Below, one piece after another: positions 7,333 through 23,875 of a DNA stretch of 64,000 nt. The position numbers were made by a program, and so were the translations under genes. Position 1 is the stretch's first letter, and every line of letters begins with the position of its first letter. The stretch is from the NCBI GenBank assembly GCA_937868765.1, contig CALMNL010000005.1:62001-126000 (forward strand), given 5' to 3'. The notes beneath the pieces are model-generated. The model was not told the DNA's origin. It was given only the letters and a program-made list of their open reading frames with translations, and did not search any database. Origin of the DNA: an uncultured Desulfatitalea sp. GTDB taxonomy: Bacteria > Desulfobacterota > Desulfobacteria > Desulfobacterales > Desulfosarcinaceae.

Positions 7333-7437
7333 AGATTTCTCCCTTTGCGTGCCGGTTGTCTGTTGCGGAGCCGCAAGCGGGGCTCCAGTTCAAATGCCAC
7401 AAAAATTCGGCGGTCGGGACCCGGGCGTGGAGAAAGG

Positions 7438-8241: not shown

Positions 8242-8259
8242 GGCGAAAATCCCTTCCGT

Positions 8260-8721
8260 TCATAGGGGTTGGAAATGATCGATGCCCAGAATCGTGTTCT
8301 CGGGTTGCGCGGCGAAGACGGCACGGACCCGCAGGCCTTCGGCCACCCGGTCGACCACGACGCCGGCGACGAGGTGGAGCAGGGGCGTGTCGGCCCCGTC
8401 CAGGCGGATCAGGCCCAGCACGAAGGGCGGTCTGCGGGGAAGGTGCCGGTCCGCGTAGCGGACGACGGTGAAATTCTCCAGGGTGCCGGTGTCGCCCAAC
8501 TCGACCCATTGGTCGCGGATGTCTTCGAGGCACCGCTCGCAGGTCTGGCGGGGGGGCACGAAGACCTTGCCGCAGGTATGGCACTTGATGCCCATAATCT
8601 TGCGCCGGTCGCGGAGAGTGGTGAGGAATATGCTTCCGACGCTGCCGGCGAAATAAGTATAAGGCAGGGCGAGCTTGCCCTGGATCGTGTAGCAATCGGA
8701 CAGGTCAAAATTGGGATGCAT
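8260..8721 (-). CDS. Zn-ribbon OB-fold protein (DUF35), DUF35a of module 1
   Basis: 153 residues. A zinc ribbon with two C-x2-C pairs ('CHTC' and 'CERC', about residues 47-65) is followed by an OB-fold ('GTLENFTVVRY...PPFVLGLIRLDGADTPLLH'). DUF35 proteins are non-catalytic partners that bind thiolase-superfamily enzymes and help hold CoA substrates. It matches, block by block, the N-terminal half of the DUF35-MaoC fusion encoded at 15187-16080 ('GKLALPY.YFAG', 'DGADTPL.H'). It starts 12 bases after the SCP2-DUF35 gene, with AAGGAG in the gap. Confidence 0.9.
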   Translation of the reverse strand: MHPNFDLSDCYTIQGKLALPYTYFAGSVGSIFLTTLRDRRKIMGIKCHTCGKVFVPPRQTCERCLEDIRDQWVELGDTGTLENFTVVRYADRHLPRRPPFVLGLIRLDGADTPLLHLVAGVVVDRVAEGLRVRAVFAAQPENTILGIDHFQPL

Positions 8722-8733
8722 GGCGTGATCTCC

Positions 8734-9585
8734 TTATGCTTCGTCTATCTCAAAGAAGAGAATGTCATCGATGCTGCCGGTGCGCGTCTCGTTCCAGACC
8801 GGCCGCAGGCGGCTGCCATGAATCACCTTATCTCCAAGGACAATGCCTCTTCTGGCCTTGTCGAGCTGGTCCGGCCGCAGCAGGTGCCAGAAGACCTCCT
8901 CGTCCCGGCAGCCGTCCAGCAAAATGCCGATGGCCCCATACGGGGTTTCGCGGGTCTCGCCGGTAAGCGGGTCGGGGCTGGCGTAGTAGCAGTACTCCAG
9001 CATGCGCATCTCTCCCTTGGGGCCGATCTCCACCCATTCGCTGTTGCGCACGCGGCAGATGGCACACGCCTCGCGCGGCGGCGACTGCAAGCGGCCGCAG
9101 GAGGGACATTTGATGGCCAGGATCTTTCGATTCTTGAGGCCCATCAGGAATTTGCCGAAAACCGGACCGGTGGCAAACCGCTGGTGGACCGAAATGGTCT
9201 TCTTGAGCACCAGCAGCTCCTGGGAGGGCTGGATTGCCGGGATGGGCGGAGAGTACTTCTGGAAGATGCGGTACGTGGCGGCGAAGGCTTCCCCATCGCC
9301 TTCCAGTTGGAGCTTGCCGGCGCGCATGGCCTCATTTGGATCGATCCTGCCGAGGGTCAGGCCTGCGAAGGTCTCACCGTCAGCGCACAGGATCGCGGCA
9401 CACCCGGAGAGATCTCCCGTGGACTCGATTTCCATCCGGTCTCCGGCCAGGGTCAATTTCCATCGGCCTTCGCCGCGGATGTCATACCCCAGCGTTGTCT
9501 GCAGGCCCTGGGCGCCTTCGGGCCGGTAGCGGCGAGGCATGGTGGCGAAGATGTCAGCGACGGCAACGTCAAAATAGATGGTCAT
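8734..9585 (-). CDS. SCP2 domain - Zn-ribbon/OB-fold (DUF35b) fusion protein
   Basis: 283 residues. The N-terminal about 115 residues form an SCP2-like sterol/lipid-carrier domain ('VADIFATMPRRY...DGETFAGLTLGRIDPNEAMRAGKLQ'). The C-terminal about 150 residues are a DUF35 domain with zinc ribbon 'CPSC...CAIC' and 'YYASPDPLTGE', here called DUF35b because it differs from the neighbouring DUF35a. The same SCP2-DUF35b unit forms the C-terminus of the 895-residue ligase fusion. The start follows the thiolase-A stop after one base (TGACATG), so translation is probably coupled. It is likely a lipophilic-substrate-holding subunit of the thiolase-fold complex. Confidence 0.9.
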   Translation of the reverse strand: MTIYFDVAVADIFATMPRRYRPEGAQGLQTTLGYDIRGEGRWKLTLAGDRMEIESTGDLSGCAAILCADGETFAGLTLGRIDPNEAMRAGKLQLEGDGEAFAATYRIFQKYSPPIPAIQPSQELLVLKKTISVHQRFATGPVFGKFLMGLKNRKILAIKCPSCGRLQSPPREACAICRVRNSEWVEIGPKGEMRMLEYCYYASPDPLTGETRETPYGAIGILLDGCRDEEVFWHLLRPDQLDKARRGIVLGDKVIHGSRLRPVWNETRTGSIDDILFFEIDEA

Positions 9586-9586
9586 G

Positions 9587-10789
9587 TCACACCCCCTGCC
9601 AGTTGAGTTCTTTTTCGAGCATGAACAGCACGGTCCACATGGTGCCGCCGAACGAGGAGGCCAGGGCGTGACGCACCGGTTTCGGGATCTGGTGCGGTCC
9701 GGCGTTGCCCCGGATCTGCTTGGCGGCTTCGGCCACGCGCACCATGGCGGTGGCGCCGATGGGATTGGCGGCCAGCACGCCCCCCGAGGGATTGATGGGC
9801 ATCCGGCCGTCGATGGCGATCTGCCGTTCTTCCACCAGCCTGAGGTGCGCGTCGCCCTCCAGCAGGAAGAAGTCACGCAACCAATCCACGCCCCACCAGG
9901 CCGAAGGGTCGTACATCTCGAACACATCGAAGTACGCCAGCGGGTCGGCGATGCCGTTGCGGGCGTAGAGCTGGGCGGCTGCAAAACGATGGGTAGTGGC
10001 GGTGGGATAGTAATTGTTGCACAGGTTCAGGGTCTCTTCCCGGTGCACGGTGATGTGATCCCGGATCCAGACCGGCCAGTTCGTGATATCTTTGGCTTTT
10101 TTCTCGGCCGCGAAGATGATGGCGCAGGCGCCGTCGGATTGGGAGCACATGTGGATCAAGCGCAGATCCCCGATCAGGGGTGGCGAGGTTTTCATCAAAT
10201 CGTCGATCTGGTCCCACGACAGACCGAAGGCCCGGTGGGAGTTGGGGTTTTTGCAGGCGTGCTGGTCCATGATGATGCGATAGGTCATGGCCGCGCGCCG
10301 CGCCCGCTCTTCGCCGAATTCGGCGATCAGCTTGCAGGCCGCCTGATCGGTCAGGGCGCCGGACTGAAGCTTGCGCGCCCACAGCGGATCGGCCATGTTG
10401 GTGATGCCGCCGGTGGTATGCCCTTCCTGGAGCTTTTCGAACCCGATGGCCATGACCGTGTCGTACATGCCCGAGGCCACCAGGTTGTCGGCCGCGCCGA
10501 CCAGGGTTCCGCCGGTGGTGCCGCCGGTGGTCAGGCGCAAGGCATCCCGTCCCAAGGCGCCGCTGCCCAGCGTGTGCCACAGGTCCGGCTGGTGGACCAT
10601 CTCGAACAGCTCCATGTTCCCGTGGAGCACGCAGTCGATGTCGTCGATTGCCAGGCCGGCGTCATCCAAGGCCTGGCGCACGGCTTCATGGATCATTTCC
10701 GGCTGGTTCACCTCCTCCCGGTGGCTGGAGAACTTGGTTGTGCCGATGCCCACGATGCCGACGTGTCTGTTTTTTTTCCGGTATCCCAT
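9587..10789 (-). CDS. Thiolase-fold protein A of module 1, lacking thiolase Cys and His
   Basis: 400 residues, collinear with SCP-x/Ltp-type thiolases ('VGIVGIGTTKF', 'AIGFEKLQEG', 'INPSGG', 'QIRG.AG..Q'). Ungapped alignment to the SCP-x segment around its nucleophile puts Gly90 ('TTGGTTGG') where thiolases have Cys, and 'NPIGAT' (Asn342) where they have GHP. Normal thiolysis is therefore unlikely. The steroid side-chain aldolase Ltp2, a thiolase-fold retro-aldolase bound to a DUF35 domain, shares the Gly substitution and a Tyr-Asp in the matching active-site loop ('EMYDP' here); this comparison is from memory. Inferred role: C-C cleavage or formation on a CoA ester, in complex with protein B and the DUF35 proteins. 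Confidence 0.85.
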   Translation of the reverse strand: MGYRKKNRHVGIVGIGTTKFSSHREEVNQPEMIHEAVRQALDDAGLAIDDIDCVLHGNMELFEMVHQPDLWHTLGSGALGRDALRLTTGGTTGGTLVGAADNLVASGMYDTVMAIGFEKLQEGHTTGGITNMADPLWARKLQSGALTDQAACKLIAEFGEERARRAAMTYRIIMDQHACKNPNSHRAFGLSWDQIDDLMKTSPPLIGDLRLIHMCSQSDGACAIIFAAEKKAKDITNWPVWIRDHITVHREETLNLCNNYYPTATTHRFAAAQLYARNGIADPLAYFDVFEMYDPSAWWGVDWLRDFFLLEGDAHLRLVEERQIAIDGRMPINPSGGVLAANPIGATAMVRVAEAAKQIRGNAGPHQIPKPVRHALASSFGGTMWTVLFMLEKELNWQGV

Positions 10790-10798
10790 ATTGACTCC

Positions 10799-11932
10799 TT
10801 ACCTTTCGAGGATCAGGACGGCGTGATGCTGACCGGCCGCGCCGGTAGTGCCATGCGCCAAGGCACGCCGGGCTCCATCCACTTGGCGCTCGCCCGCTTC
10901 GCCGCGCAATTGCAGCGCGCATTCCAGGGCGCGCGCCAGTCCGCCCAGCATGATCGGGTTGCCGTTGAGCATGCCGCCGGAGCGATTGACCCGGTCCAGG
11001 CCGCTTTCGATCCAGGCACCGCCGCTGCCTTCGGGGGTCAAACCGGTCCCTTCGGCCCACAAGGGCAACTGATAGGCGTAGGCGTCGTTGAGTTCGACCA
11101 GGTCGAAGGCCGTCGATGGATCGGCGATGTCGGCCATGCTGTACGCCCGCCGGGCGGCGCGTTTGAGGGCGAAATTACCGGTCAGGTCGCGGTCGCCCAG
11201 AAAGTAGCTGTCCATGCAACTGCCGAAGCCGGTAAGCCAGACAGGCTTTTCGGTAAATTCGTGCACCCGCTCCTCGCAGCATAAGAGCATGCCCGCGGCC
11301 CAGTCGGTGACCGGGTAGGCATGCAGTTGGCGGATGGGATCGGCCAGCAGCGGAGAGGTCAGCACATCGGTCTCCGTGACCGGTGGGTTGTCGCGGGCGT
11401 AAGGGTTTCGGGCGCCGTTGGCCCGGGCGTGCATGACGACCTGCGCCAGATGGTGCTCGGTAAGCTTGGCCTTGCGCATATAGGCCCTGGCCTGCAAAGC
11501 GGCGGCCGTGAGAAAATCAAGGCCCAGGGGGCGGCAGTAAAACGGGTCGAAGGCCAGGTTGGTGTTCATCAACCGGCTTTCGGATTGCGATTCCTTGCAG
11601 TGACCCATCACCAGAATCAGATCGTCATGCCCGGAAAGAATGGCGGCCGCGGCATATCCCAGGGCATTGAGGCCGTCCTGGGCGACTTTTTCTTCACCAC
11701 GGAAGTGGGCGCCCACCACGTCGGTTACCGCATTGTCGGAGATGGTGCGGGCATCGAAGACATCATCCGAGCAGGTGACCACATTGCGGATGCCCTGCTC
11801 CATGTCGAAGGTGACCCCGGTCTGTCGGACAATGGATTCGAAGCATTCCAGCACCATGCCCTGGAAGCGCTGATACCAGATATCGGGTTCGTTCTTGATC
11901 TGCGCCACCGCGCAAATGGCGACTCGGTTCAT
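10799..11932 (-). CDS. Thiolase-fold protein B of module 1, lacking thiolase Cys and His
   Basis: 377 residues from ATG 11932 (AAGGGAA 7 bases ahead; a longer in-frame start lacks support). It has a thiolase fold: 'VAICAVAQ' start, 'LVELNDAYAYQ', 'VNRSGGMLNGNP', 'LQLRGEAGERQV'. The nucleophile position is Ala84 ('EKVAQDG') and the catalytic His of GHP is Asn325 ('GNPIML'). It is distinct from protein A, which starts 9 bases downstream, so the two probably form a hetero-oligomer in which B may be the structural half. It lies 67 bases after the acyl-CoA ligase gene. A collinear paralogue is at 20032-21192. Confidence 0.83.
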   Translation of the reverse strand: MNRVAICAVAQIKNEPDIWYQRFQGMVLECFESIVRQTGVTFDMEQGIRNVVTCSDDVFDARTISDNAVTDVVGAHFRGEEKVAQDGLNALGYAAAAILSGHDDLILVMGHCKESQSESRLMNTNLAFDPFYCRPLGLDFLTAAALQARAYMRKAKLTEHHLAQVVMHARANGARNPYARDNPPVTETDVLTSPLLADPIRQLHAYPVTDWAAGMLLCCEERVHEFTEKPVWLTGFGSCMDSYFLGDRDLTGNFALKRAARRAYSMADIADPSTAFDLVELNDAYAYQLPLWAEGTGLTPEGSGGAWIESGLDRVNRSGGMLNGNPIMLGGLARALECALQLRGEAGERQVDGARRALAHGTTGAAGQHHAVLILER

Positions 11933-11999
11933 AGGCGATTCCCTTTCTTGCCGGCATACCCCTGCCAATCGAAGCTTCACGCGCAAATGCTTTCTCGCT

Positions 12000-13817
12000 T
12001 CAATGCGACAGAGGTTCGGAGTTCTCGGCGTACATGCGTTGAATTTCTTTCTCGTACTTTTTGTAGATGACATTGCGCTTCAACTTGAGCGAGGGCGTCA
12101 GTTCGCCGCCCGCCTGGGAGAATTCATTCTTCAGGATGTGATACTTCTTGATCGTTTCGTAGCGGGCCAGCTTTTTGTTCTTTTCGGCCACGTGCTCATC
12201 CACGATCTTCAAGAACTCCGGATCGTCCAGCAGGGCTTCTCCGCGCGTGGCGATACCCTTTTGTTCGGCCAGGAGATGCGCTTGAGTCATTTGGATGGTG
12301 ATCAGGGCCGATAGGAATTTCTTGCGTTCACCCACCACGATAAAGTGGGTGAAAAGCGGGTCGAACATGAAGATGCCCTCGATCTTCTGAGGCGCCACAT
12401 TCTTGCCGCCGGAGGTGATGATCAGGTCTTTTTTGCGGTCGGTGATGGTCAAGAAGCCATCGGCATCGAACCGGCCGATGTCGCCGCTCATGAGCCAGCC
12501 GTCGGCGGTGAAGCTGTTTCGGGTCTCCTTCGGCATCTTCCAATAGCCCGCGAAGACGTTGTCCCCCTTGACGAGGATCTCGCCGTCCTCGGCGATCTTT
12601 ACCTGGACGCCGGGGATCGGCTTGCCCACCGTGCCGATCTTGTAGTCGGAAAGGTTGCTCATGGTGGCCGGCGCGCAGGTCTCGGTCATGCCGTAGCCTT
12701 CGATCACGGTGATTCCCGAGGCATTGAAGAACAGAATGATATCCCGGGAGGTGGGCGCGCCGGAGGCCGTCATCCAGCGCACCCGGCCGCCCAGGGCCAT
12801 GGCCAGTTTTTTGAAAATCAGGGCGTAGGCCAGTTTGTATTTCAACCCCAGCAGCAGCGGGATCGCCTGCTTCTTTTCGCGCAATGCGCTGATCTTCAGG
12901 CCGATGCCGTAGCCCCAGTGAAACATGTTTTGCTTCCAGGGCGGCTGTTCCTGAACCTGGGCCAGGATGCGCTGGTATACCTTTTCACAAACGCGCGGTA
13001 CGGCGAGCACCATGGTCGGCCGTTTTTCCTTCACGTCATTGGCGAAGGTGTCGAGACTCTCCGCGTAGGAGGCCGTCAACCCCACATACATGCCGTAAAA
13101 ATGGCCGGCGATGCGTTCGAAGACATGGCTCAAGGGTAAAAATGGCACCGTCTGATCGCTTTCGAAGCCGAATTTGGGCGTGATGCGATCCAGGGAATCG
13201 ATGACCGCCATGATGTTCTTATGGGTGATCATGGCTCCCTTGGGGACACCGGTGGTGCCGGAGGTATATACCAGGGTGGCCAGATCGTCCGGAACCACGG
13301 CGGCGGCCAGTGTCGCAAACTGCTCCGGCTGCTTTTCAAGCTGCTGCTGGCCGAGGGCAAGCAGGGCATTGAAGCTCATGACATCGTCCCTGGCAACGGT
13401 GTCGGCGGCATCGAAAACAACGATTTTTTCCAGTTCCGGGACCTCGCCGGCGATGGTCAGCACTTTCGTCAACTGAAGCACGTTTTCCACAAACAGCACC
13501 CGTGCACCCGAATTGTGAAGGATATGTTTGATCTCTTCGGCCACCAGGGTGGTGTAGATGGGAACCGACACCGCCCCGAGGCCGAGGATTCCCATGTCCG
13601 CATAGAGCCACTCCAACCGGTTTTCGGAGAGGATGGCTGCCATCTGCCCCTTGCGCAACCCCAGGCTGTACAGTCCCATCCCGGTCTCGCGGGCGCGTTC
13701 ATAATACGTGCTCCAGGTGGCTTTTTGCCAGGTTCCGCCGCGCTTTTTCTCCACGGCGACCCGCTGCTTGTAGCGCTTGGCCCGACTGACAAATACGTCG
13801 TTGATGGTCTTTTCCAT
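12000..13817 (-). CDS. AMP-forming long-chain acyl-CoA synthetase
   Basis: 605 residues of the ANL superfamily, in the long-chain (FadD15/ACSL-like) branch. Visible motifs are the phosphate-binding 'YTSGTTGVPKGAM', 'GYGMTET', 'SGDIGRFDADG' and 'DRKKDLIITSGGKNVAPQKIE'. It activates a free fatty or related acid with ATP and CoA in the cytoplasm. I chose ATG 13817 for its AAGGGGG site; an ATG at 13835 overlaps the upstream stop as TGATG and is possible. It lies between an acyl-CoA dehydrogenase and thiolase-like B, and is the stand-alone counterpart of the ligase domain fused in module 2. Confidence 0.93.
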   Translation of the reverse strand: MEKTINDVFVSRAKRYKQRVAVEKKRGGTWQKATWSTYYERARETGMGLYSLGLRKGQMAAILSENRLEWLYADMGILGLGAVSVPIYTTLVAEEIKHILHNSGARVLFVENVLQLTKVLTIAGEVPELEKIVVFDAADTVARDDVMSFNALLALGQQQLEKQPEQFATLAAAVVPDDLATLVYTSGTTGVPKGAMITHKNIMAVIDSLDRITPKFGFESDQTVPFLPLSHVFERIAGHFYGMYVGLTASYAESLDTFANDVKEKRPTMVLAVPRVCEKVYQRILAQVQEQPPWKQNMFHWGYGIGLKISALREKKQAIPLLLGLKYKLAYALIFKKLAMALGGRVRWMTASGAPTSRDIILFFNASGITVIEGYGMTETCAPATMSNLSDYKIGTVGKPIPGVQVKIAEDGEILVKGDNVFAGYWKMPKETRNSFTADGWLMSGDIGRFDADGFLTITDRKKDLIITSGGKNVAPQKIEGIFMFDPLFTHFIVVGERKKFLSALITIQMTQAHLLAEQKGIATRGEALLDDPEFLKIVDEHVAEKNKKLARYETIKKYHILKNEFSQAGGELTPSLKLKRNVIYKKYEKEIQRMYAENSEPLSH

Positions 13818-13834
13818 CGTTACCCCCTTGAACA

Positions 13835-14998
13835 TCAGATTAAAAAGCGCGTGATGATCTCCTTCATGATCTCGGTGGTGCCGCCTCCGATGGACAGGAT
13901 CCGGTTGTCGCGGTAAAGCCGCTCCACCAGGTAGCCGCGCATGAAGCCATAACCGCCGAAGATCTGGACCGCGTCGTAGGTGACCTTATCGGCAACGCTG
14001 CAGGCGAAGTTCTTGGCCATGGCCACCTCCTTGATCTGGTCCACCCCTGAACCGATCTTGGCCGCCACCCGGTACGTGAACTCCGTGCTGGCTTCGATCA
14101 GCGTCGCCATGTCCGCCAGTTTATGGCGCGTCACCTGAAACCCGCTCAGCCTCCTGCCGAACGCCTGGCGCTCCTTGGCGTATTTGACGGCCTCCTCCAG
14201 CGCCATGCGCGCCGTCATGTTGGCCATGATCGCCAAGGCCAGTCGCTCCGACTGAAAATTGGCCATGATGCCCAGGAAGCCTTGATTCTCCGGGCCAAGC
14301 CGGTTTTGCACCGGCACACGGCAGTTGTCGAAGAAGATCTCTCCGGTGTCGGAACACCACCAGCCGGTTTTTTTCAACCTCTTGGCCACCGAATACCCGG
14401 GGCGGTCGGCCTCGATCACCAGCAGACTGATGCCATGCGCCCCCTCGCCGCCGGTGCGAACTGCGGTCGTGACCAAATCGGCCCGGCAGGCGCTGGTGAT
14501 AAACGTTTTGCTGCCATTGACGATGTAGTCGTCGCCTTCCCTGATCGCCGTGGTGGTCAGGTTGGCCACATCCGAACCGCCTCCCGGCTCGGTGATCCCC
14601 AAGGCCGCGATCTTTTCGCCCGCCAGAACCGGCGTGACGAACCGGCGCTTCTGCTCCTCGTTGCCCAGGGCCAGGATCGGCGGAATGGCGATGTTGAGCG
14701 AGCCCAGCCCCGCGCAGAATCCGCCGGACCCTGAACGCATCAACTCCTCGTTCATCACGATCTTGAAGAAAATGTCTCCCGGCGTGCCGCCGTACGCCTC
14801 GGGGAACCCCATGCCCAGGATGCCCACCGCGGCAGCCTTTTTGTACAGCTCTCTGGGAAATTCGCCGGCCTCCTCCCAATCGTCGATGAAGGGCAGCACC
14901 TCCTTCTTGATGAATTCCCGGATCGATTTGCGCACCATCTCATGGGCCTTGCTGAAGTACTCCTGACAAGTGCATTCGGTTTTAAATTCGATGGTCAT
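13835..14998 (-). CDS. Acyl-CoA dehydrogenase
   Basis: 387-residue flavoprotein of the acyl-CoA dehydrogenase family. It shows 'ALGITEPGGGSD', 'NGSKTFIT', 'IFGGYGFMRGYLVERLYRD' and 'GGGTTEI'. The classical medium-chain position for the catalytic Glu (before GTS/GTT) is Gly. A Glu in 'QSERLALAIM' occupies the position used by isovaleryl-CoA and long-chain dehydrogenases. It introduces a 2,3-double bond, passing electrons to ETF. The next gene downstream is the ligase, almost touching. Upstream lies a palindromic element separating it from the DUF35-MaoC gene. Confidence 0.92.
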   Translation of the reverse strand: MTIEFKTECTCQEYFSKAHEMVRKSIREFIKKEVLPFIDDWEEAGEFPRELYKKAAAVGILGMGFPEAYGGTPGDIFFKIVMNEELMRSGSGGFCAGLGSLNIAIPPILALGNEEQKRRFVTPVLAGEKIAALGITEPGGGSDVANLTTTAIREGDDYIVNGSKTFITSACRADLVTTAVRTGGEGAHGISLLVIEADRPGYSVAKRLKKTGWWCSDTGEIFFDNCRVPVQNRLGPENQGFLGIMANFQSERLALAIMANMTARMALEEAVKYAKERQAFGRRLSGFQVTRHKLADMATLIEASTEFTYRVAAKIGSGVDQIKEVAMAKNFACSVADKVTYDAVQIFGGYGFMRGYLVERLYRDNRILSIGGGTTEIMKEIITRFLI

Positions 14999-15049
14999 TG
15001 CATTCTTCCTTTTTCTCTTTGCGAGCTACGCAGTATGTCTGTTGGGATT

Positions 15050-15176
15050 CCAGAAGTGGTAGGTTGCCGTCCAGATCAAGGCCGCTGCGCTTTCGAAACC
15101 GCAGGCGTAGTTCCTCTACGCCGAGGATTTAAAAAGCGCGAGAACGCGGATATGGACCGCAAGATGCCGCTTCTGG
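15050..15176. repeat. Long imperfect palindrome (possible MITE-like element)
   Basis: About 127 bases read as one long imperfect inverted repeat. CCAGAAGTGG (15050-15059) faces CCGCTTCTGG (15167-15176) with one mismatch. Inward, TTGCCGTCCAGAT faces ATATGGACCGCAA with two mismatches, and GCGCTTT faces AAAGCGC. The centre is a perfect GGCGTAG-TTCCT-CTACGCC hairpin (15104-15122). It fills nearly the whole 188-base gap between the DUF35-MaoC stop and the dehydrogenase start, so it would be transcribed as a large RNA hairpin. No second copy was noticed in the window. Confidence 0.6.
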
Positions 15177-15186
15177 AAGCCCACCG

Positions 15187-16080
15187 CTACCCCAGCGGCA
15201 CCGGCGGAATGGCCAGACAACTGCCCTCCGCCACCAATTCCCCCTTCTGGTTGAGCCAGCGCAACTCCATGCGCACCCACTTGCGCGCATCGATCTTCTC
15301 CGCCACCTCGCCGATGGCCGTGATGGTGTCGCCGAAATAGGTGGGCTTGCGAAAGCGCACCGTGATTTCCGGAATGACCGTTCCCAGGCCGGGCAGCTTC
15401 ATGCCCAGCACCGGTGCGATCAGGCTCTGGGGCAGAGCGCCGTGGGCGATGCGCGTGCCGAAGGGGGTCAACTTGGCGAATTCTTCGTTCAAGTGCATGG
15501 GGTTGAAATCGCCGGAGATGCCAGCGAACAAGTAGACGTCGGTCTCCGAGATGGTTTTGGTGAAAGAGGCTGACATCCCCACCTCCAACGCCTCATAGGA
15601 ATAACCCAGCTCGATCTTGGGTTTTTCTTCCAGAGGCCGGAAATGGTCGATATCCAGGATGGAAGAAGTCGTCTTCTTGGCGAACACCGCCTGGACGCGC
15701 TGACCGGTCCTGACTTTGGTCAGCGGGATACCCTTGACGATATGGGCCAGGGGCGTGTCGGCTCCGTCGAGTTTGATCAAGGCCAAGATGTAGGGCGGTT
15801 TGACCGGCTGGTGGGGCTCCTCGTAGCGGATGACCGTGTGGCCGGTGATGGTGCCGGTGTTTTTCACCTCCACCCAATGGTCGGCGATCTTCGCCCCACA
15901 GCTCACACAGGTGGAGCGGGGAGGAACGAAAACTTTATCGCACGTCTGGCAGCGCAGCCCCTGGATTTTCTTCTGGTCGCGCAGCTGGATCAGGAAACGG
16001 CTGCCGGTTCTGCCGGCAAAGTACTGATAAGGCAGGGCCAGTTTTCCATCGACGATGAAACTGTCGGCTTTGGCGGTCAT
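15187..16080 (-). CDS. DUF35 (Zn-ribbon/OB-fold) - MaoC hydratase fusion
   Basis: 297 residues. Residues about 1-150 are a DUF35a domain with zinc ribbon 'CQTC' and 'CVSC' (about 44-61) and 'DGADTPLAH'. Residues about 158-297 are a MaoC hot-dog domain with the (R)-hydratase motif 'AGISGDFNPMH', giving catalytic Asp191 and His196, then 'FGTRIAHG'. It should hydrate an enoyl-CoA while docking to the thiolase-like proteins through DUF35. In actinobacterial steroid degradation ChsH2 also joins these domains but in the opposite order (MaoC first). ATG 16080 has AAGGAG 9 bases ahead. It lies 21 bases after the ligase-SCP2-DUF35 fusion gene. Confidence 0.92.
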   Translation of the reverse strand: MTAKADSFIVDGKLALPYQYFAGRTGSRFLIQLRDQKKIQGLRCQTCDKVFVPPRSTCVSCGAKIADHWVEVKNTGTITGHTVIRYEEPHQPVKPPYILALIKLDGADTPLAHIVKGIPLTKVRTGQRVQAVFAKKTTSSILDIDHFRPLEEKPKIELGYSYEALEVGMSASFTKTISETDVYLFAGISGDFNPMHLNEEFAKLTPFGTRIAHGALPQSLIAPVLGMKLPGLGTVIPEITVRFRKPTYFGDTITAIGEVAEKIDARKWVRMELRWLNQKGELVAEGSCLAIPPVPLG

Positions 16081-16101
16081 GGTCAATCTCCTTTATCTGT
16101 A

Positions 16102-18789
16102 TCAATCGATGAGTTCGAAGTATTTGATGTCGGTGACGGCGCCTTTGCGGTGTTCTTCCCATACCGGCCGCACCCGATCGCCCTTCTTGGCCCGATGCCG
16201 GTCCTCGGGCTTGAGTTCGTGCCAGAGCGTCTCGTGATCCTTGCAGCCGTCCAGCAGAAAATGTGCCGCGATGTAGGGGGTTTCACGAACCTCGCCGGTC
16301 AGCGGATCGGGACTGGCGTAGTAGGTGATATCCAGAATGGAGATCACGCCCTCCGGCCCGACTTCCACGAATTCTCCGGCGCGCACCACGCATTCGGCGC
16401 ACACCTCACGGGGTGGGAGCTGCAGCCGGCCGCAGGAGGGACAGCGGTTGGCCAGAATTTTTTTCTGCTGGATGGCTTTGAGGAATCGGCCCATGACCGG
16501 CCCGGTGGAAAATTTCTGCGGGATAGAGAGTATCTGCTTCTTGACGATCAGTTCTTCGCCTTCGGCCTCGGTCTGGCCGCTGGGCGGCGTGTACTTCTTG
16601 AAGAATTTGGTGGCTTTGGTCAGCAGCCCCAGATCCCCCTCGACACTGAGCTTGCCCGTAGTAAAGGCGGTCATGCCATCGAGTTTGCCGAGCGTGATGG
16701 CGATCCAATCCTTGGCCGCGCAAGTGGTGGTGACGTTGGGTTCCTTGAGTCCCTGCACGATTTTGACCGTGCCGTCGCTGACGCACACGGTCCAGTCACC
16801 GCCGCCCGTACCCGTAATCCGATAACCGTAATTGGCCCGGATGTCCTTCAGGTTTTCCGGGATGGCGCGCCGTTCCATGGTACCGAAGATGTCGGCCACC
16901 GACACCTCCGGTGCCGCGGCCGGCGGAACATACTTCTTGAAGAAGGTGGTGGCCTTGGTAAGCAGCCCCAAATCGCCCGCCACCTTGAGTTTGCCGGAAG
17001 AAAAAGCAGTCATGCCATCCAGTTTGCCCAAGGTGATGGCGATCCAGTCCTTGTCCGCACAGGTGGTGGTGACATTGGGATTCTGAAGGCCTTGCTCGAT
17101 CCTGACCGTGCCGTCATTGACGCACACGGTCCAGTCGCCGCCACCGCTCCCCATAATCTTATAGCCATAGTTGGCCCGGATGCCTTTGAGGTTTTCCGGT
17201 ATGGCGCGCTGCGCCATCGTTCCGAAGATGTCGGCCACCGACACCTCCGGTCCCTTGGCCTGCCGGGGGGTACCTTCCTTGGCCCATTGGCGCAGGGTCT
17301 TTTTGAGGACCTTGCCTACCGGGTTGCGCGGAAAATCCTCCGTCAGAAGCTCCACGTACCGGGGCACTTTGAATTTGGCCAGATTCTGCCGGCAAAAGTC
17401 GATGACCTCTTCCTCGGTCAGCGTGTCGTCCCGGGCAACCACGAAGACCTTGACCTCTTCGCCCATGGTCTTGTCCGGCACGCCGACCGTGGCGGCCTCA
17501 GCGATCTTGGGATGGGTGGCCAGCAGGTTGTCGATCTCCTTGGGATAGATGTTCTCGCCGCCGCGGATGATCATGTCTTTGATGCGGTCCACGATGAAAA
17601 TATAGCCGTCTGCATCCTTGACGCCCACGTCGCCGGTGTGCAGGTAACCGTCGATGATGGTTTTGGCGGTCTCTTCCGGGTTGTGGTAGTACCCCTTCAT
17701 GATGTTGTCGCCTTTGATGACGATCTCGCCGCTTTGGCCGGTGGGCACTTCCCGCCCCTGCTCGTCCACGATCTTGACCTCCTGACCGGGCAGGGGCAGG
17801 CCGATGGAGCCCACCTTGCGCACCCCTTTGCGCGGGTTTATGGTGCTCACGCAGGTGCCTTCGGTGAGCCCATAGCCCTCGACGATCGGAATCTTGAAGG
17901 TGCTTTCGAATTTCTTCATCAATTCTTCGGTCAGGGGCGCGGCGCCGCAGATCCCGAACTCGATGCAGGCAAGGTCGTGCTTCCGGCTGGAGGGGTCGGA
18001 CAGCAGAATTTGATAAACCGCCGGTACCGCCGACCAGAAATTGATGCGGTACTTGGCCACGGTTTCCCAGAACTCGCCGGCGGAAAATGCTTTGCGCAGC
18101 ACGATCTGGTGGCCTTTCTCCATGGACGAGGTGCAGGTCAGCATGGCGTTGACGTGGAACAGGGGCAGGAAGCACAGGAAGTTCTTTCTTTCATCCGTAT
18201 CCAGGGCCCGGTTGATGCCCTGGGCATCGGCCACCACGTTTTTATGGGAGAGCAGCACGCCCTTGGGATTGCCCGTCGTGCCGGAGGTATAAAAAATGAA
18301 GGCCGTATCCTCCGGGCCGGCATCGCACTTGACTTTGCGGGTGTCGTCCTGGGCCATCAGATCAGTGAAGGCGATGTGCTCGGGACGCGGTGAGTCGCCC
18401 ACTTCGATGACTTTTTGAAGGTACGGGCAGTTGGCCTTGATTTCGTCGTAGATCGGCAAGTACTGGTCTTCCACGATCAGGCCGGTGCCCTGGGAGTCGT
18501 TCAGCAGGTATTGGACTTCCGGCCCTTTCCACCAGCCGTTGATGGGCCCGGCCACCGCCCCGATCTGAATGATGGCGTAGTAAGCGATGAGGGTTTCCGG
18601 ACTGTTCTGGACCCACACGTGAATGAAGTCGCCTTTTTTGAACCCCTGGGCCTTGAGGGCGTTGGCCAGGCTGTGGATTTTGTTTTCCAGGTCGGCGTAG
18701 GTGTAGACTTTATCGTAGAAGTTGATGTAGGGGGCCGTCTTGAACTTTTTGACAGCGGTTTCGATATATTGCGCCAGGTTGATTGCCAT
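16102..18789 (-). CDS. Four-domain fusion: acyl-CoA ligase - SCP2 - SCP2 - DUF35
   Basis: 895 residues. Residues about 1-514 form a complete AMP-forming acyl-CoA ligase: 'YTSGTTGNPKG', 'EGYGLTEG', 'TGDVGVKDADGY' and the C-terminal lysine region 'NPVGKVLKK'. Residues about 515-621 and 628-734 are two SCP2-type lipid-carrier domains, about 83% identical to each other (18 differences in 107). Residues about 745-895 are a DUF35b domain with zinc ribbon 'CPSC...CAEC'. ANL ligases usually end near residue 500-560, so this architecture is unusual. It would activate, carry and present one substrate to the thiolase-like proteins encoded just upstream (18840-21192). AAGGAGG precedes the ATG. No break or frameshift is visible. 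Confidence 0.93.
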   Translation of the reverse strand: MAINLAQYIETAVKKFKTAPYINFYDKVYTYADLENKIHSLANALKAQGFKKGDFIHVWVQNSPETLIAYYAIIQIGAVAGPINGWWKGPEVQYLLNDSQGTGLIVEDQYLPIYDEIKANCPYLQKVIEVGDSPRPEHIAFTDLMAQDDTRKVKCDAGPEDTAFIFYTSGTTGNPKGVLLSHKNVVADAQGINRALDTDERKNFLCFLPLFHVNAMLTCTSSMEKGHQIVLRKAFSAGEFWETVAKYRINFWSAVPAVYQILLSDPSSRKHDLACIEFGICGAAPLTEELMKKFESTFKIPIVEGYGLTEGTCVSTINPRKGVRKVGSIGLPLPGQEVKIVDEQGREVPTGQSGEIVIKGDNIMKGYYHNPEETAKTIIDGYLHTGDVGVKDADGYIFIVDRIKDMIIRGGENIYPKEIDNLLATHPKIAEAATVGVPDKTMGEEVKVFVVARDDTLTEEEVIDFCRQNLAKFKVPRYVELLTEDFPRNPVGKVLKKTLRQWAKEGTPRQAKGPEVSVADIFGTMAQRAIPENLKGIRANYGYKIMGSGGGDWTVCVNDGTVRIEQGLQNPNVTTTCADKDWIAITLGKLDGMTAFSSGKLKVAGDLGLLTKATTFFKKYVPPAAAPEVSVADIFGTMERRAIPENLKDIRANYGYRITGTGGGDWTVCVSDGTVKIVQGLKEPNVTTTCAAKDWIAITLGKLDGMTAFTTGKLSVEGDLGLLTKATKFFKKYTPPSGQTEAEGEELIVKKQILSIPQKFSTGPVMGRFLKAIQQKKILANRCPSCGRLQLPPREVCAECVVRAGEFVEVGPEGVISILDITYYASPDPLTGEVRETPYIAAHFLLDGCKDHETLWHELKPEDRHRAKKGDRVRPVWEEHRKGAVTDIKYFELID
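16588..17247 (-). repeat. Tandem duplication of the SCP2-coding unit
   Basis: Two 321-base SCP2-coding units (16927-17247 encoding the first domain, 16588-16908 the second) lie head to tail, joined by an 18-base linker rich in Ala and Pro codons. Both begin with codons for EVSVADIFGTM and end with FFKKY. Their similarity exceeds that to the single SCP2 domain of the module-1 protein, so the duplication came after the two modules split. Confidence 0.8.
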
Positions 18790-18839
18790 GCTGGGCCTCC
18801 TTATTGGCCAAAAAAGTTAACCTTCGGTTGCTCTGCGGA

Positions 18840-20021
18840 TCAGCGCGGAACTTCCCGGGTCAGCAGAAGCAGCACGCTCCAGAGGGTGCCGCCGAAACCC
18901 GATGCCAGGGCCTGGTTCACGGTTTTGGGCACCTGGTGTTCGCCGGCGTCGCCCATGATCTGCAGGGCCGCTTCGGCCACCCGCACCATGGCTGTGGCGC
19001 CGATCGGGTTTGAGGCGATCACGCCGCCCGAAGGGTTGATGGGAAACGTGCCGGTCAGGCTGATGGCGTCGTTTTCGACCATGCGCAGGTGCTCGTCGCC
19101 TTTGAGCAGCAGAAATTCCCGGATCCAGTCCAGGCCCCACCAACTCGATGGGTCGTACATTTCAAAGACATCGATCTGTTTAAGCGGGTCGGCGATGCCG
19201 TTACGGGCATAGAGCTTTTCGGCGGCATAACGGTGACTCATCAGCACCGGGGCGTCGCCGAAGATGCAAAAGCTTTCCTCACGGTGCACCGTGAGGTGAT
19301 CCTTGATCCAGGCCGGATTTTTGCGCAATTGCTTCGCCTTTTCTTCGGAAGCGAAGATCATGGCACAGGCGCCGTCGCTCTGGGAGCACATGTGAATCAT
19401 GCGCAGTTCGCCCACCAGGGCCGGCGAGTTGGTCATCAGCTCCTCGGCCTGGTCGAACTCCAGCCCCAGGCGGCGGTGGGCCTTGGGGTTTTTCATGGCA
19501 TGTTTGTCCATGAGGATGCGGTACCGCATGGCCGCTTTTTTGGCCCTTTGCTCGCCGAATTCCTCAATCGTCTGGGCCGCGGTCATGCCGGTGAGGGCGC
19601 CGGTCTGGAGTTGGCGCGCCCAGAGCGGGTCGGCCATGTTGGTGATGCCGCCGGTGGTGTGGCCTTCCTGAAGTTTTTCGAACCCGATGGCCAGCACCAC
19701 GTCGTGCAGGCCCGAAGCCACCAGGTTATCCGCGACGCAGCACAATGTGGCGCCGGTGGTGCCGCCGGTGGTGACGCGCAGGGTCTCTTTGCCGAAAGCG
19801 CCGCTGCCCAGGGTGTGCCACAGGTCCGGCTGGTGAACCATTTCAAAGAGTTCCATGTTGCCGTGGACCACGCAGTCGACGTCGTTCATGGTGATGCCGG
19901 CATGGGCCAGGGCTTCGGCCACGGCTTCCTGAATCATTTCAGGCTGGTTGACATCCTCGCGATGGCTGGAAAACACCGATTGCCCGACGCCGACGATGCC
20001 GACGTTTCGATTCTTTTTCAT
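18840..20021 (-). CDS. Thiolase-fold protein A' of module 2, lacking thiolase Cys and His
   Basis: 393 residues, collinear and strongly similar to the module-1 A protein ('NQPEMI', 'HGNMELFEMVHQPDLWHTLGS', 'AIGFEKLQEGHTTGG'). The nucleophile position is Gly87 ('TTGGTTGA') and the GHP position reads 'SNPIGAT' (Asn338). 'FEMYDP' keeps the Tyr-Asp noted for protein A. The start has AGGAGG. Its gene is 10 bases downstream of B' and 50 bases upstream of the ligase fusion. Same inference as for A: an aldolase-like or otherwise repurposed C-C bond enzyme acting with DUF35 partners, not a conventional thiolase. Confidence 0.85.
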   Translation of the reverse strand: MKKNRNVGIVGVGQSVFSSHREDVNQPEMIQEAVAEALAHAGITMNDVDCVVHGNMELFEMVHQPDLWHTLGSGAFGKETLRVTTGGTTGATLCCVADNLVASGLHDVVLAIGFEKLQEGHTTGGITNMADPLWARQLQTGALTGMTAAQTIEEFGEQRAKKAAMRYRILMDKHAMKNPKAHRRLGLEFDQAEELMTNSPALVGELRMIHMCSQSDGACAMIFASEEKAKQLRKNPAWIKDHLTVHREESFCIFGDAPVLMSHRYAAEKLYARNGIADPLKQIDVFEMYDPSSWWGLDWIREFLLLKGDEHLRMVENDAISLTGTFPINPSGGVIASNPIGATAMVRVAEAALQIMGDAGEHQVPKTVNQALASGFGGTLWSVLLLLTREVPR

Positions 20022-20031
20022 GGATCGCCTC

Positions 20032-21192
20032 CTAATCCCGTTGCAGAGTAAGAACTGAATGAAATTGGCCGGCCGCTCCCATCACGCCATGCGCCAAGGC
20101 GGTTCTGGCATCCGCCACCTGTCGCGCGCCGGCCTCGGCCCGCAGTTGCAGCGCGGCTTCGGCGGCCCGCACGAGGCCGCCCAGGATCAGGGGGTTGCCG
20201 GCCAGCATGCCGCCGGAAACATTGACGCGCTGACGGGTGGGGCCGTCGTCGTCGATCCAGCGCGCCCCGTCGCCTTCGGCGCAAAGCCCCAGGCCCTCGG
20301 CCCACAGGGGTTGCTGATAGGCGTATTGGTCGGAAAGTTCCACCACATCGAAGGCCGACTTCGGATCGCTGATGCCGGCGCGCCGGTAGGCGCGCTGCGC
20401 CGCTTGTTTGAGCGCGAAATTGGCGGTCAGATCTCTGTCGCCCAGGAAGAAGCTGTCCATGCAGTTGCCCGTGCCGGTGATCCAGACCGGGGTTTTGGTG
20501 ATTCGGCGGGCGATCTCCTCGGCGGCCAGCACCAGCCCGACAGCGCCGTCGGAGACCGGGTAGGCATGCAGTTTACGGATGGGATCGGCCAGCATGTCGG
20601 AGGCCATCACCGCCTCGGCCGTCAGGGGTTCGAGTTCGGTGATGCAGGGATTTTGAGCTGCATGCTGCCGCGCAGCCACCACGATTTTGGCCAACTGGGT
20701 GTCGTTCAGGCCGCTCTTCTGGGCATAGGCTTGCGCCTGCAGACCGGCGGCCGCGCAGAAATCCAGGCCCACCGGCCGGGTAAAGAATGGATCAAAGGCC
20801 ACATGGGTGACCATGTTGCGGCTTTGGCCCTGGGATTCCTTGCAGTGGCCGATAATCAGGACCTGGTTGCAATGACCGGAGGCGATCGCGGCCAGACCGT
20901 AGTAAATGGCCTGAATGCCTTCCTGGGCCACTTTTTCGGCGCAGCCGAAATGCGCGCCCAACACATCGGTCATGGCATTGTCGGAGATCGTGCGCGCATC
21001 GAACACATCGTCGGAGACGTTGATCGACATGTCGATACCTTTTACTTCCCGACGGTGGCGGGAGAATTTGATGTCTATCTGCTCCCGCAACTTCTCCAAA
21101 ACCTCCAGGGCCATGCCTTGGAACCGCTGGTCCCATTTGTTGCGCGCATAGGTCGTTTGAGCGACCGCGCAGATTGCCACTTTCCTTGCCAT
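20032..21192 (-). CDS. Thiolase-fold protein B' of module 2, lacking thiolase Cys and His
   Basis: 386 residues from ATG 21192, preceded by AGAGGTG; an upstream in-frame start would add a non-conserved tail. It is collinear with the module-1 B protein ('VAICAVAQ', 'DDVFDARTISDNA', 'GHCKESQ', 'LADPIRKLHAYPV', 'CMDSFFLGDRDLT'). The nucleophile position is Ala89 ('EKVAQEG') and the GHP position reads 'GNPLIL' (Asn333). It has a short insert ('FSRHRREVKG') not in B. As first gene after a 292-base gap it may open a sub-operon. Confidence 0.83.
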   Translation of the reverse strand: MARKVAICAVAQTTYARNKWDQRFQGMALEVLEKLREQIDIKFSRHRREVKGIDMSINVSDDVFDARTISDNAMTDVLGAHFGCAEKVAQEGIQAIYYGLAAIASGHCNQVLIIGHCKESQGQSRNMVTHVAFDPFFTRPVGLDFCAAAGLQAQAYAQKSGLNDTQLAKIVVAARQHAAQNPCITELEPLTAEAVMASDMLADPIRKLHAYPVSDGAVGLVLAAEEIARRITKTPVWITGTGNCMDSFFLGDRDLTANFALKQAAQRAYRRAGISDPKSAFDVVELSDQYAYQQPLWAEGLGLCAEGDGARWIDDDGPTRQRVNVSGGMLAGNPLILGGLVRAAEAALQLRAEAGARQVADARTALAHGVMGAAGQFHSVLTLQRD

Positions 21193-21484
21193 TGGAAGCA
21201 CCTCTTTTTGTTGGTTTTTGGAATAAAGGCCGAGGCCCGGGAGATCAGGAAACACTTCTACTGCTCAGCCGTTGATCTATTTTTGCCGATGGTCGTCTTT
21301 AAATTGTGTGGAACTCTGGTACGAATCGCTTGAGGTTACTGTTGTATCTTTCGACTTCCCCGCGGAAAGCCGTTAGAAACCAATTCAAAACCTGCCCGCA
21401 GGCCAATCCGGGCGTTGGGGCCATGATGTCCAATCATATAAACTTCCTTGGTTTTCAACCTGGTGGAAGGTTTTGAAATGGCGT
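21193..21484 (-). other. 292-base intergenic gap inside the catabolic cluster
   Basis: It separates the PHP gene from thiolase-like B' in an otherwise tightly packed leftward run. It may hold an internal promoter, but no convincing -35/-10 pair, sigma-54 site or terminator hairpin was found. A short leftward ATG frame here has no codon support and no recognisable product. Confidence 0.4.
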
Positions 21485-22033
21485 CTAAGCATAACAGTTC
21501 CAAAAATCTCCATTCCGGATGGCCCGAATGATGCCGTCCTTGTTCCGGGGACCGTCCATCTCGATCCAAGCCCGGCCGCATCCAAGGCGGGTATGGGCGT
21601 CGTCGGTGGCCACTTTGACATACGGCAGCGCTTCGATTTCATATTCGCGAACGCGAAATCCCTTGCTGGTCACCTCCACGGCATCGATGGGAATGCGCTG
21701 CGCCACACTGGCGATCCGATCGATCACCTTGTCCATGGGCAGGCCGAGTTCCGATGGATGATTGAAGATATGCAGCCGCTCCTTTTCTCCTTTGATACGG
21801 TTGACGTGGACGTAGCCTTTCTCGAACACCGTCAGTTCCAGGCCCTCGAAGACGATCAGGTCGGTTTGAATCGTCTGGAGGACATCGTAGCAGTTGGGCC
21901 GGAGCAAATAGTCATGATCGGTGAGGGCGAGAAAATCGAAGCCCAGCGCGGTATAAACATGCACCACCTCGGCAACGCTCATGTCGCCGTCCGAACAGGT
22001 GGTGTGCGTATGCAGGGCCCCCTTTAAATGCAT
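21485..22033 (-). CDS. PHP-domain metal-dependent phosphoesterase-like protein
   Basis: 182 residues with PHP motifs in order: 'ALHTHTTCSDG' (about residues 6-16), 'ALTDHD' (about 36-41), His in 'IFNHPSE', and 'VATDDAHT' near residue 143. The metal-binding His/Asp set looks complete. The family includes histidinol phosphatase and oligonucleotide or mononucleotide phosphoesterases, so the substrate is unknown. It starts 3 bases after the TetR stop, clearly in the same transcript. A phosphoesterase has no obvious job in acyl-CoA breakdown. Confidence 0.8.
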   Translation of the reverse strand: MHLKGALHTHTTCSDGDMSVAEVVHVYTALGFDFLALTDHDYLLRPNCYDVLQTIQTDLIVFEGLELTVFEKGYVHVNRIKGEKERLHIFNHPSELGLPMDKVIDRIASVAQRIPIDAVEVTSKGFRVREYEIEALPYVKVATDDAHTRLGCGRAWIEMDGPRNKDGIIRAIRNGDFWNCYA

Positions 22034-22036
22034 GGC

Positions 22037-22708
22037 TTACTTCTTCGCTTCGGAAAAAAGATTCTGAACGCCGCCCAGGATGAATTCCACGGCGTCGCGG
22101 CCGATCCTTTTCAGGTGCTCGGCCTGGTCCTGCCACATGACGTACTGGTAGGCCACACGTTCATAGATCCCCATGATGGACACTGCGACCACCTCGGGAG
22201 AGAATTTTCCGGTGTAGGTCACGCCCTGGTGCCGGCAGACCAGCGACAGCGCGGAGAGCAGATCCTGGATGCATTGATCGAAGAGCGCTTTGCGATATTG
22301 CTCGACTTCCGGACTCTTGCCCACCGACTCGCGGAAGATGATGGTGCACTTTTCGGGATAGTTGACGCAAAAATCCTCAAAAAAGGCCTGCCCGGCGCAT
22401 TTGAAGCCTTCCAGGTTTTCCCCATGGGTTATAAAGGCGTTGCCGATGATGCTGCGCAGCAGGAGGCCGATGGCATCCATCATCTGAACCAGCAGGTCCT
22501 CCTTGTTCTTGAAATAGAAGTAAACCGCACCCACCGATACTTCCGCCGCTTCCGCGATCTGCTCCATGCTGGTCTGGGAATAACCCTCCCGGGCAAACAA
22601 CTTTTCCGCGGCAGTCAAAATGGTCTGATAGCGATGCTCGCGTTCCCGCTGTCGGCGAAGCGCCGATTTGGATGCGACTTGCGCAGTGGCGGCTTTCTTG
22701 AATGACAT
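22037..22708 (-). CDS. TetR/AcrR-family transcriptional regulator
   Basis: 223 residues. An N-terminal helix-turn-helix spans about residues 28-72 ('ILTAAEKLFAREGYSQTSMEQIAEAAEVSVGAVY' region, then 'YFYFKNKEDLL'). A helical ligand domain follows. AAGGAAA lies about 10 bases before ATG 22708. It sits between the two-dehydrogenase pair and the PHP gene in the same leftward transcript, so it probably autoregulates and controls the whole cluster. The candidate operator is the ATGAAT-ACG-ATTCAT palindrome upstream of the first dehydrogenase gene. Regulators in this context usually respond to acyl-CoAs. Confidence 0.93.
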   Translation of the reverse strand: MSFKKAATAQVASKSALRRQREREHRYQTILTAAEKLFAREGYSQTSMEQIAEAAEVSVGAVYFYFKNKEDLLVQMMDAIGLLLRSIIGNAFITHGENLEGFKCAGQAFFEDFCVNYPEKCTIIFRESVGKSPEVEQYRKALFDQCIQDLLSALSLVCRHQGVTYTGKFSPEVVAVSIMGIYERVAYQYVMWQDQAEHLKRIGRDAVEFILGGVQNLFSEAKK

Positions 22709-22730
22709 TTGGTCTGGTTTCCTTTTTAAG

Positions 22731-23864: not shown

Positions 23865-23875
23865 CTTCGCTCCTT

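Follow-up and report, generated by a model that had tools for sequence, protein, structure and literature searches.

What is the role of a hydratase joined to the DUF35 domain of a putative aldolase module in a bacterium of the Desulfobacterales? This question is raised by a gene at positions 15187 to 16080 of a 64,000-nucleotide stretch of DNA, here called the window, from an uncultured Desulfatitalea sp. (contig CALMNL010000005.1, positions 62,001 to 126,000). Its product is a fusion of a DUF35 domain (DUF35a) with a MaoC-type enoyl-coenzyme A (CoA) hydratase domain. The same two families meet in ChsH2 of steroid-degrading actinobacteria and in Shy, a bile-acid enzyme of Comamonas testosteroni. 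On the evidence of sequence and structural model, the MaoC half is PhaJ-like, and the fusion is not a rearranged ChsH2, nor, judged by its MaoC half, a Shy. We consider it somewhat probable that the protein belongs to a scaffolded hydratase and retro-aldolase, which would remove beta-branched acyl units without carboxylation.

Origin of the fusion gene and its MaoC half

The gene is intact and lies on the minus strand, with an ATG at 16080 preceded by AAAGGAG and a TAG stop at 15187-15189; frame 1 of the forward reading holds an internal stop. The coordinates of the initial annotation were exact for the gene, and the strand is added here. The 297-residue product gave Pfam matches above the respective cut-offs to zf-ChsH2 (44-65), OB_ChsH2_C (71-135) and MaoC_dehydratas (176-274), i.e. 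a DUF35 part made of a zinc ribbon and an OB fold (44-135), followed by a MaoC domain at about 161-292.

Relatives were sought with the fusion alignment as query (patterns GDFNPMH and GKLALPYQ), and the best 80 of the 365 found were fetched, which is not a random sample. A fused open reading frame (ORF) was present in 40 of the 80 loci, always with DUF35 first (L030 and L053 among them are cut at the contig start). With the window and L001-L004 added (in part contigs already counted), there are 45 fused rows, all with DUF35 ahead of MaoC, in agreement with the earlier remark that the domain order is opposite to that of ChsH2. L046 and L047 are one assembly, and the pairs L002/L033, L004/L039 and L005/L059 each appear to be one contig counted twice. 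In alignment A2, Asp191 and His196, already pointed out as an intact MaoC active site, are invariant in 39/39 fused and 27/27 MaoC-only rows. The zinc site is of the C4 type (C44/C47/C58/C61, spacing C-x2-C-x10-C-x2-C); cysteines 44, 47 and 58 are found in 39/39 fused rows, and cysteine 61, hence all four, in 38/39. Since the 38 other fused rows are 59-81% identical to the window fusion and the order is the same in 45/45, the fusion is not a product of chance. Its holders are Desulfobacterales (among them Desulfosarcina widdelii and D. alkanivorans, L037 and L054), Desulfohalobiaceae bins and some bins without a fine name. Among 40 genomes searched, the fusion's own and 39 relatives, full-length matches were found in its own and 3 others, and none in the 10 other genomes of the same genus.

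Where does the MaoC half come from? In sequence searches it matched the PhaJ entries 5CPG (E 6.4e-26) and 1IQ6 (E 2.8e-19); ShyMaoC was matched by phmmer at E 0.0035, over 49 residues only. A profile of the 101-row alignment A2 gave PhaJ1 7.1e-38 versus 3.5e-4 for ShyMaoC (8VWR). A single-chain AlphaFold2 model from the 101 alignment rows reached a predicted local distance difference test (pLDDT) score of 89.2, with a predicted TM-score of 0.53 that makes the mutual placing of the two domains uncertain; an earlier model from the four-row alignment A1 was poor (pLDDT 44.2) and was discarded. Superposition of the model's MaoC half gave 1.1 Å and Z 20.7 with 1IQ6 (132 residues), 1.7 Å and Z 15.2 with chain F of the ChsH1-ChsH2 complex, and 3.8 Å and Z 12.3 with ShyMaoC (8VWR). 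Both superposition and profile thus put it closer to PhaJ than to ShyMaoC, and it has the hot-dog fold with catalytic Asp-His of the PhaJ type (Pfam, model and alignment A2).

In a tree of 73 MaoC rows the fused rows sit among stand-alone MaoC proteins of related bacteria, and this joint set is split from five other PhaJ-like rows with support 100/99. The ChsH1 and ChsH2 rows were saturated in a first tree (branch length 10) and too distant to be placed, so the tree was rebuilt without ChsH, L013, L144, L064 and L053. A ChsH-derived MaoC half was also considered and rejected: phmmer with the fusion (E up to 10, 42 sequences) found only the DUF35 part of ChsH2 among the ChsH proteins. As the MaoC half appears PhaJ-like in sequence, model and tree, we conclude that the fusion is not a rearranged ChsH2 nor, by its MaoC half, a Shy. 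The initial annotation counted grouping of the MaoC domain with unrelated hydratases against its reading. Grouping with other hydratases is indeed observed, but an independent fusion predicts exactly this.

For the DUF35 half of the model, ChsH2-DUF35 (Z 13.7) and Shy-DUF35 (Z 13.2) are about equally close. In a tree of 102 DUF35 rows, built by a quick method from a selected part of the loci with labels from best BLAST bits, the fused DUF35 groups with stand-alone DUF35a and DUF35a2 (41 rows, support 95); within the cluster, DUF35a2 is the paralogue without a MaoC domain, and it shares 52% identity with the fusion's own DUF35. On the MaoC tree, 2 changes are required to account for the 40 fused rows, and a single clade of them is not rejected (approximately unbiased test, p-AU 0.218; 0.361 without L051). 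Fused and stand-alone DUF35 are intermixed within the 41-row group, so that repeated fusion or fission may have occurred. Two further arrangements were seen: a 417-residue SCP2-DUF35a-MaoC ORF in L049 (9599-10849), with no A'/B' match upstream, and, on an Azospirillum plasmid (L013, 5828-7876), separate adjacent genes for thiolase, DUF35, MaoC and a short-chain dehydrogenase/reductase, in which the DUF35-MaoC order is present unfused.

Putative thiolase-fold partners and gene neighbourhood

The fusion had been described as lying beside thiolase-fold proteins with Ltp2-like active-site losses. The pair is present nearby, but the gene immediately upstream (16102-18789) encodes an 895-residue fusion of an AMP-forming acyl-CoA ligase, two SCP2 domains and a further DUF35 domain, DUF35b, and the pair lies beyond it: B' at 18840-20021 and A' at 20032-21255, with a probable ATG near 21192. 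All recognised genes from 6004 to 25018, these included, are on the minus strand. The losses are real. A Gly in B' and a gap in A' are aligned to the thiolase Cys, and the HP motif has become NP in B', A', their second-module paralogues B'2 and A'2 and two Tsukamurella proteins (6/6); both A' and B' therefore lack the nucleophilic Cys and HP-motif His of a thiolase. The two proteins differ, however, in what is left. At the position of the Ltp2 motif YDHF, 33/33 B' and 18/18 B'2 rows (minimum identity 55%, length above 330 residues) read YDPS, the Tyr being kept in 51/51, whereas Ser comes first in 26/27 A' rows (SDQY in the window A', lacking that Tyr) and Asn in 19/22 A'2 rows. B' thus keeps the Tyr reported as the catalytic base in Ltp2 and Sal, and not their acids; A' looks like a partner subunit. 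Sal, the aldolase partner of Shy, is reported to have Gly for the thiolase Cys and to use Tyr in catalysis (PMC12329534).

In a quick tree of 47 thiolase-fold rows from chosen loci, with Nocardia Ltp2 (YDHF present) and one thiolase outside, A' groups with Ltp4 (24 rows, support 99) and B' with Ltp3 (20 rows, support 91), rather than with Ltp2. In their own genome A'2 (1.4e-48) and A' (9.1e-46) are by far the best matches to PRK07937, the next being 9.2e-21. An adjacent pair accompanied by two DUF35 domains, a trait of the Ltp3/Ltp4 type, is present as well. The reference set, on a Tsukamurella plasmid (L126), has the order crotonase EchA19 - ligase - tandem DUF35 - Ltp4 - Ltp3, and scores 428.4 for EchA19 (cut-off 400), 593.4 for PRK07937 (419) and 734.3 for PRK08313 (514); we take it to be of the Rv3521-Rv3523 type. 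Aldol lyase activity on C24-branched side chains of sterols has been ascribed to Ltp3/Ltp4 (PMC8708139, PMC6273163). The PhaJ-like MaoC half, the C4 zinc site and the grouping of the partners with Ltp3/Ltp4 together support the suggestion that MaoC and DUF35 were fused here independently, i.e. separately from ChsH2 and also, as far as the MaoC half shows in sequence and model, from Shy.

Gene order was then compared among the fetched loci, counting for the fusion loci only those with enough sequence on the side in question. Upstream of the fusion we found B'-type genes in 24/25, A'-type in 22/23 and DUF35b in 37/38 loci; downstream, the acyl-CoA dehydrogenase ACAD1 in 33/35 and a second module in 11/24. 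Of the 40 loci L055-L094, 29 have a stand-alone MaoC gene (lowest match accepted, 58%): 15 of them with a carboxylase/hydratase module like that of methylcrotonyl-CoA carboxylase (MCC), 5 with unfused A'/B'/DUF35, and 9 with neither. The complete order ACAD3 - ACAD2 - carboxyltransferase - biotin carboxylase - biotin carboxyl carrier - enoyl-CoA hydratase (ECH) - MaoC - ACAD1 is present in six of the 15 carboxylase loci (L060, L061, L067, L069, L072, L074), with TetR after ACAD2 in L061, and BKACE/AtuA after ECH and SCP2 after MaoC in some; the remaining loci are cut or partial. The fusion loci have the same flanks around A'-B'-(ligase)-SCP2-DUF35b-DUF35a, the fusion being the last module gene joined to MaoC. 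ACAD1 identity is 63-73% in 13/15 carboxylase loci and 37% in the other two, that of ACAD3 is 70-78% in 9/15, and the runner-up acyl-CoA dehydrogenase is below 41% in every fusion and carboxylase locus. The best PDB match of the carboxyltransferase is the MCC beta subunit (7.4e-208; geranyl-CoA carboxylase 1.6e-142), and AtuA was confirmed in L061. The aldolase module thus stands where related operons have an MCC-like carboxylase module between the same dehydrogenases and hydratase. MCC-type enzymes work on beta-methyl enoyl-CoAs, which points to this substrate class for the aldolase module too. Elsewhere in the genome of the fusion, another MCC-like operon includes AtuA and an ACAD1 at 72%, and that stretch gave no MaoC match. 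Where L061 has AtuA, between ECH and MaoC, a BKACE-type gene was seen in L060, L068, L072 and L074 (PF05853 confirmed in L068, the others judged by eye).

The window cluster contains two paralogous A'-B'-SCP2-DUF35b-DUF35a modules: in the one at 8260-12073 the DUF35 stands alone and an EchA19-like crotonase accompanies it, in the one at 15187-21255 MaoC is fused. From low to high coordinate it starts with a FadL/TodX-type outer-membrane transporter (6004-7332) and the crotonase (7438-8241; best model EchA19, NF051848, 285.8 bits against a cut-off of 400). Then come DUF35a2 (8260-8721), SCP2-DUF35b2 (8734-9591, the ORF being open to 9984 with a probable ATG near 9591), the Ltp3-like B'2 with YDPS (9587-10789), the Ltp4-like A'2 (10799-12073, probable start near 11935), a second AMP-forming acyl-CoA ligase, LIG2 (12000-13835), and ACAD1 (13835-14998). 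After the fusion, the ligase-SCP2-SCP2-DUF35b protein, B' and A', there come a conserved small protein of 182 residues (21485-22033), a TetR-family regulator with an internal true start (22037-22927), ACAD2 (22731-23864) and ACAD3 (23876-25018). The small protein gave no Pfam match at 1e-6; it was seen at the same place in many fusion loci and looked like a PHP-type phosphoesterase, which Pfam did not confirm. Close ligase matches in L015-L094 amount to 26 ORFs, of which 23 also carry SCP2 and DUF35b, while in the other 3 DUF35b is not part of the ORF; the 23 (loci L017-L058) have one SCP2 copy in 7 cases, two in 10 and three in 6. SCP2 and DUF35 are joined without a ligase in 34 further ORFs, many of them from second modules or cut by contig ends. 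Outside the cluster, at 26892-30014 (minus strand), a molybdopterin oxidoreductase frame runs unbroken through 1040 residues, provided that an in-frame TGA (residue 190, context RIUHSATV) stands for selenocysteine. Adjoining it are an FdhE-like protein and a Fer4_11 subunit, and it looks like a selenocysteine-containing formate dehydrogenase.

Proposed function and rival explanations

How might these proteins work together? DUF35a would be one of two DUF35 sockets contacting a heteromeric Ltp3/Ltp4-type aldolase made of B' and A', and the other, DUF35b, would bear the SCP2 carrier domains and the acyl-CoA ligase. The MaoC domain would hydrate an enoyl-CoA to the 3-hydroxyacyl-CoA, probably of R configuration, which B', with the YDPS Tyr as base, would then cleave to an aldehyde or ketone and acetyl- or propionyl-CoA. 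An isoprenoid-like acyl-CoA with a beta-methyl branch is the probable substrate, and the module would stand in for the carboxylase route. Hydration of a beta-branched enoyl-CoA would give a tertiary 3-hydroxyacyl-CoA, and since this is not oxidisable to the 3-ketone needed by a thiolase, retro-aldol cleavage would be one exit, as described for Ltp2 (PMC12329534) and reported for Ltp3/Ltp4. The cluster supplies candidates for such a route: an activating ligase, dehydrogenases, the hydratase and the aldolase. A tentative extension, which we hold with clearly less confidence, is that an Ltp3/Ltp4-like core with a DUF35a-MaoC hydratase arm and a ligase-(SCP2)1-3-DUF35b arm constitutes a Desulfobacterales assembly that replaces the MCC/Atu biotin carboxylase module in anaerobic beta-methyl removal.

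The initial annotation saw in the fusion strong support for a hand-over from hydratase to aldolase. This inference has to be corrected, since Shy-Sal, the only relative found for which this has been measured, does not channel: a competing dehydrogenase captured 93 ± 1% of what the hydratase had formed, the linker is flexible, and no significant channelling is reported (PMC12329534). In strain TA441 the ChsH2 domains are reported to be split apart with both activities retained. The tether would be expected to co-localise the two activities and to fix their stoichiometry, not necessarily to channel, and co-localisation seems the safer reading.

Several observations weigh against the scaffolded hydratase and retro-aldolase, the behaviour of Shy-Sal among them. 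B' has Pro where Sal has its acid Cys and Ltp2 its His, and Pro again for the second Tyr of Ltp2. The model scores are below cut-off (PRK08313 275.8 for B' and 197.0 for A', cut-off 514; PRK07937 158.8 for A', cut-off 419), the raw scores of A' lean to Ltp3 (PRK08313 above PRK07937; BLAST Ts_ltp3 139, Ts_ltp4 110), and A'/B' are just 29-33% identical to the Tsukamurella Ltp4/Ltp3 proteins. The ligase is upstream in just 22/27 fusion loci and ACAD3 and ACAD2 in 12/18 each, and L049 is without B' upstream. In the 5 unfused loci A'/B' are just 34-42% identical to those of the window, and 9/29 stand-alone MaoC loci (L064 being cut by the contig end) lie in neither context. Finally, MaoC in the carboxylase operons may serve an ordinary beta-oxidation round, which makes the beta-methyl substrate uncertain.

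In an alternative that we consider unlikely, the MaoC half hydrates unbranched enoyl-CoAs in ordinary beta-oxidation, the fusion just sets stoichiometry or co-expression, and the aldolase acts at another step. The PhaJ-type fold would suit it, as would the presence of the same MaoC family in carboxylase operons that have their own ECH hydratase, the adjacency of MaoC and ACAD1 (33/35), almost as constant as the aldolase genes, and the EchA19-like crotonase as a second hydratase within the cluster. Against it stands the specific choice of fusion partner, the DUF35 belonging to the aldolase module, in 40/80 loci (a set obtained by searching with the fusion itself), and the experimentally known DUF35/MaoC proteins, Shy and ChsH2, hydrate the substrate of their aldolase (for Shy, PMC11321319). 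The Ltp3/Ltp4 grouping, the crotonase, the SCP2 domains and FadL might be taken to indicate a hydratase-aldolase for steroid side chains, an anaerobic equivalent of Shy-Sal or of the sterol-degrading Ltp3/Ltp4. We regard this as quite improbable, though no search was aimed at steroid-ring genes, because the MaoC half fits PhaJ closely over its 132 superposed residues, while ShyMaoC and ChsH2 are described with a shortened central helix (PMC11321319), and because the zinc site is C4 versus C3H1 in Shy.

Could the module run in the synthetic direction, A'/B' condensing acetyl-CoA with a ketone and MaoC dehydrating the product, as a form of ketone activation? Aldol reactions are reversible, and a DUF35 protein with acetyl-CoA acetyltransferases has been reported in acetone-grown Desulfotomaculum arcticum (PMC8084838). 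Against this, the thiamine diphosphate enzyme, mutase and alcohol/acyl dehydrogenase genes of reported ketone clusters were not met among the identified ORFs of this cluster, and its two ligases, three acyl-CoA dehydrogenases and FadL point to acyl oxidation, so that we give the synthetic direction little credence. Least credible of all is an ordinary beta-ketothiolase with DUF35: A'/B' do have the thiolase fold and a Thiolase_C_1 match, but the absence of the nucleophile Cys from both and the exchange of the HP-motif His for Asn leave it next to no standing.

Comparison with known systems

As far as the open-licence PMC papers among the matches listed allow one to judge, three features are new: the pairing of a two-subunit Ltp3/Ltp4-like module with a PhaJ-type hydratase, the arm built as ligase-SCP2n-DUF35b, and the exchange between this module and carboxylase modules; no title or abstract start among them describes this cluster. 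Fusions of DUF35 with hot-dog dehydratases, with SCP2 and with itself were recorded as early as 2010 (PMC2954200), and the reversed domain order was dropped as a novelty, Shy (reported in 2024-2025) already having DUF35 at its N-terminus and MaoC at its C-terminus (PMC11321319). We compared Shy through PDB entries 8VWR and 9MYR only. It is reported to bind the thiolase-fold aldolase Sal through DUF35, and it shares with the window fusion the N-terminal DUF35 of similar fold, the single catalytic C-terminal MaoC and a thiolase-fold partner without the thiolase Cys. It differs in its distant MaoC half, in its C3H1 zinc site and its linker of 26 residues (PMC12329534), compared with 6 residues between the DUF35 and MaoC hidden Markov model envelopes in the fusion, and in its partner, Sal with YDCY, versus a two-protein Ltp3/Ltp4-like pair with YDPS.

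The actinobacterial ChsH1-ChsH2/Ltp2 system (4W78, 6OK1) has the same two domain families, with similar DUF35, and the same kind of partner. Its order is reversed, and ChsH2 needs ChsH1 for catalysis, whereas the window MaoC owns its catalytic pair; neither MaoC ahead of DUF35 (0/45 fused rows) nor a non-catalytic MaoC (Asp/His in 39/39) was found here. The Tsukamurella Ltp3/Ltp4 set resembles the window in its two adjacent thiolase-fold genes, two DUF35 domains and neighbouring EchA19-type crotonase and ligase, but has both DUF35 domains on one polypeptide, in which Pfam finds no MaoC or SCP2. PhaJ (1IQ6, 5CPG) corresponds to the MaoC half, with its Asp/His, and is a stand-alone protein without DUF35. 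The MCC/Atu-like operons (15 loci within L060-L088, e.g. from Desulfomonile and Desulfarculus bins) share MaoC (64-75%), ACAD1, ACAD3, ACAD2 and, in L061, TetR, while carboxyltransferase, biotin carboxylase, carrier, ECH and BKACE or AtuA replace A'/B'/DUF35. PhlABC, the archaeal thiolase/HMG-CoA synthase and BbsAB also combine DUF35 with thiolase-fold subunits; they carry out acylation or thiolysis, and no hydratase domain is described in them (PMC12329534).

If the proposed function is right, sulfate reducers would have an anaerobic route for methyl-branched acyl units without ATP-dependent carboxylation. A MaoC hydratase would then have been joined to an aldolase DUF35 at least three times, in ChsH2, in Shy and in the window fusion, with different hydratases and in both orders, and such repeated independent joining would mark DUF35 as a docking socket of general use, not one peculiar to steroids.

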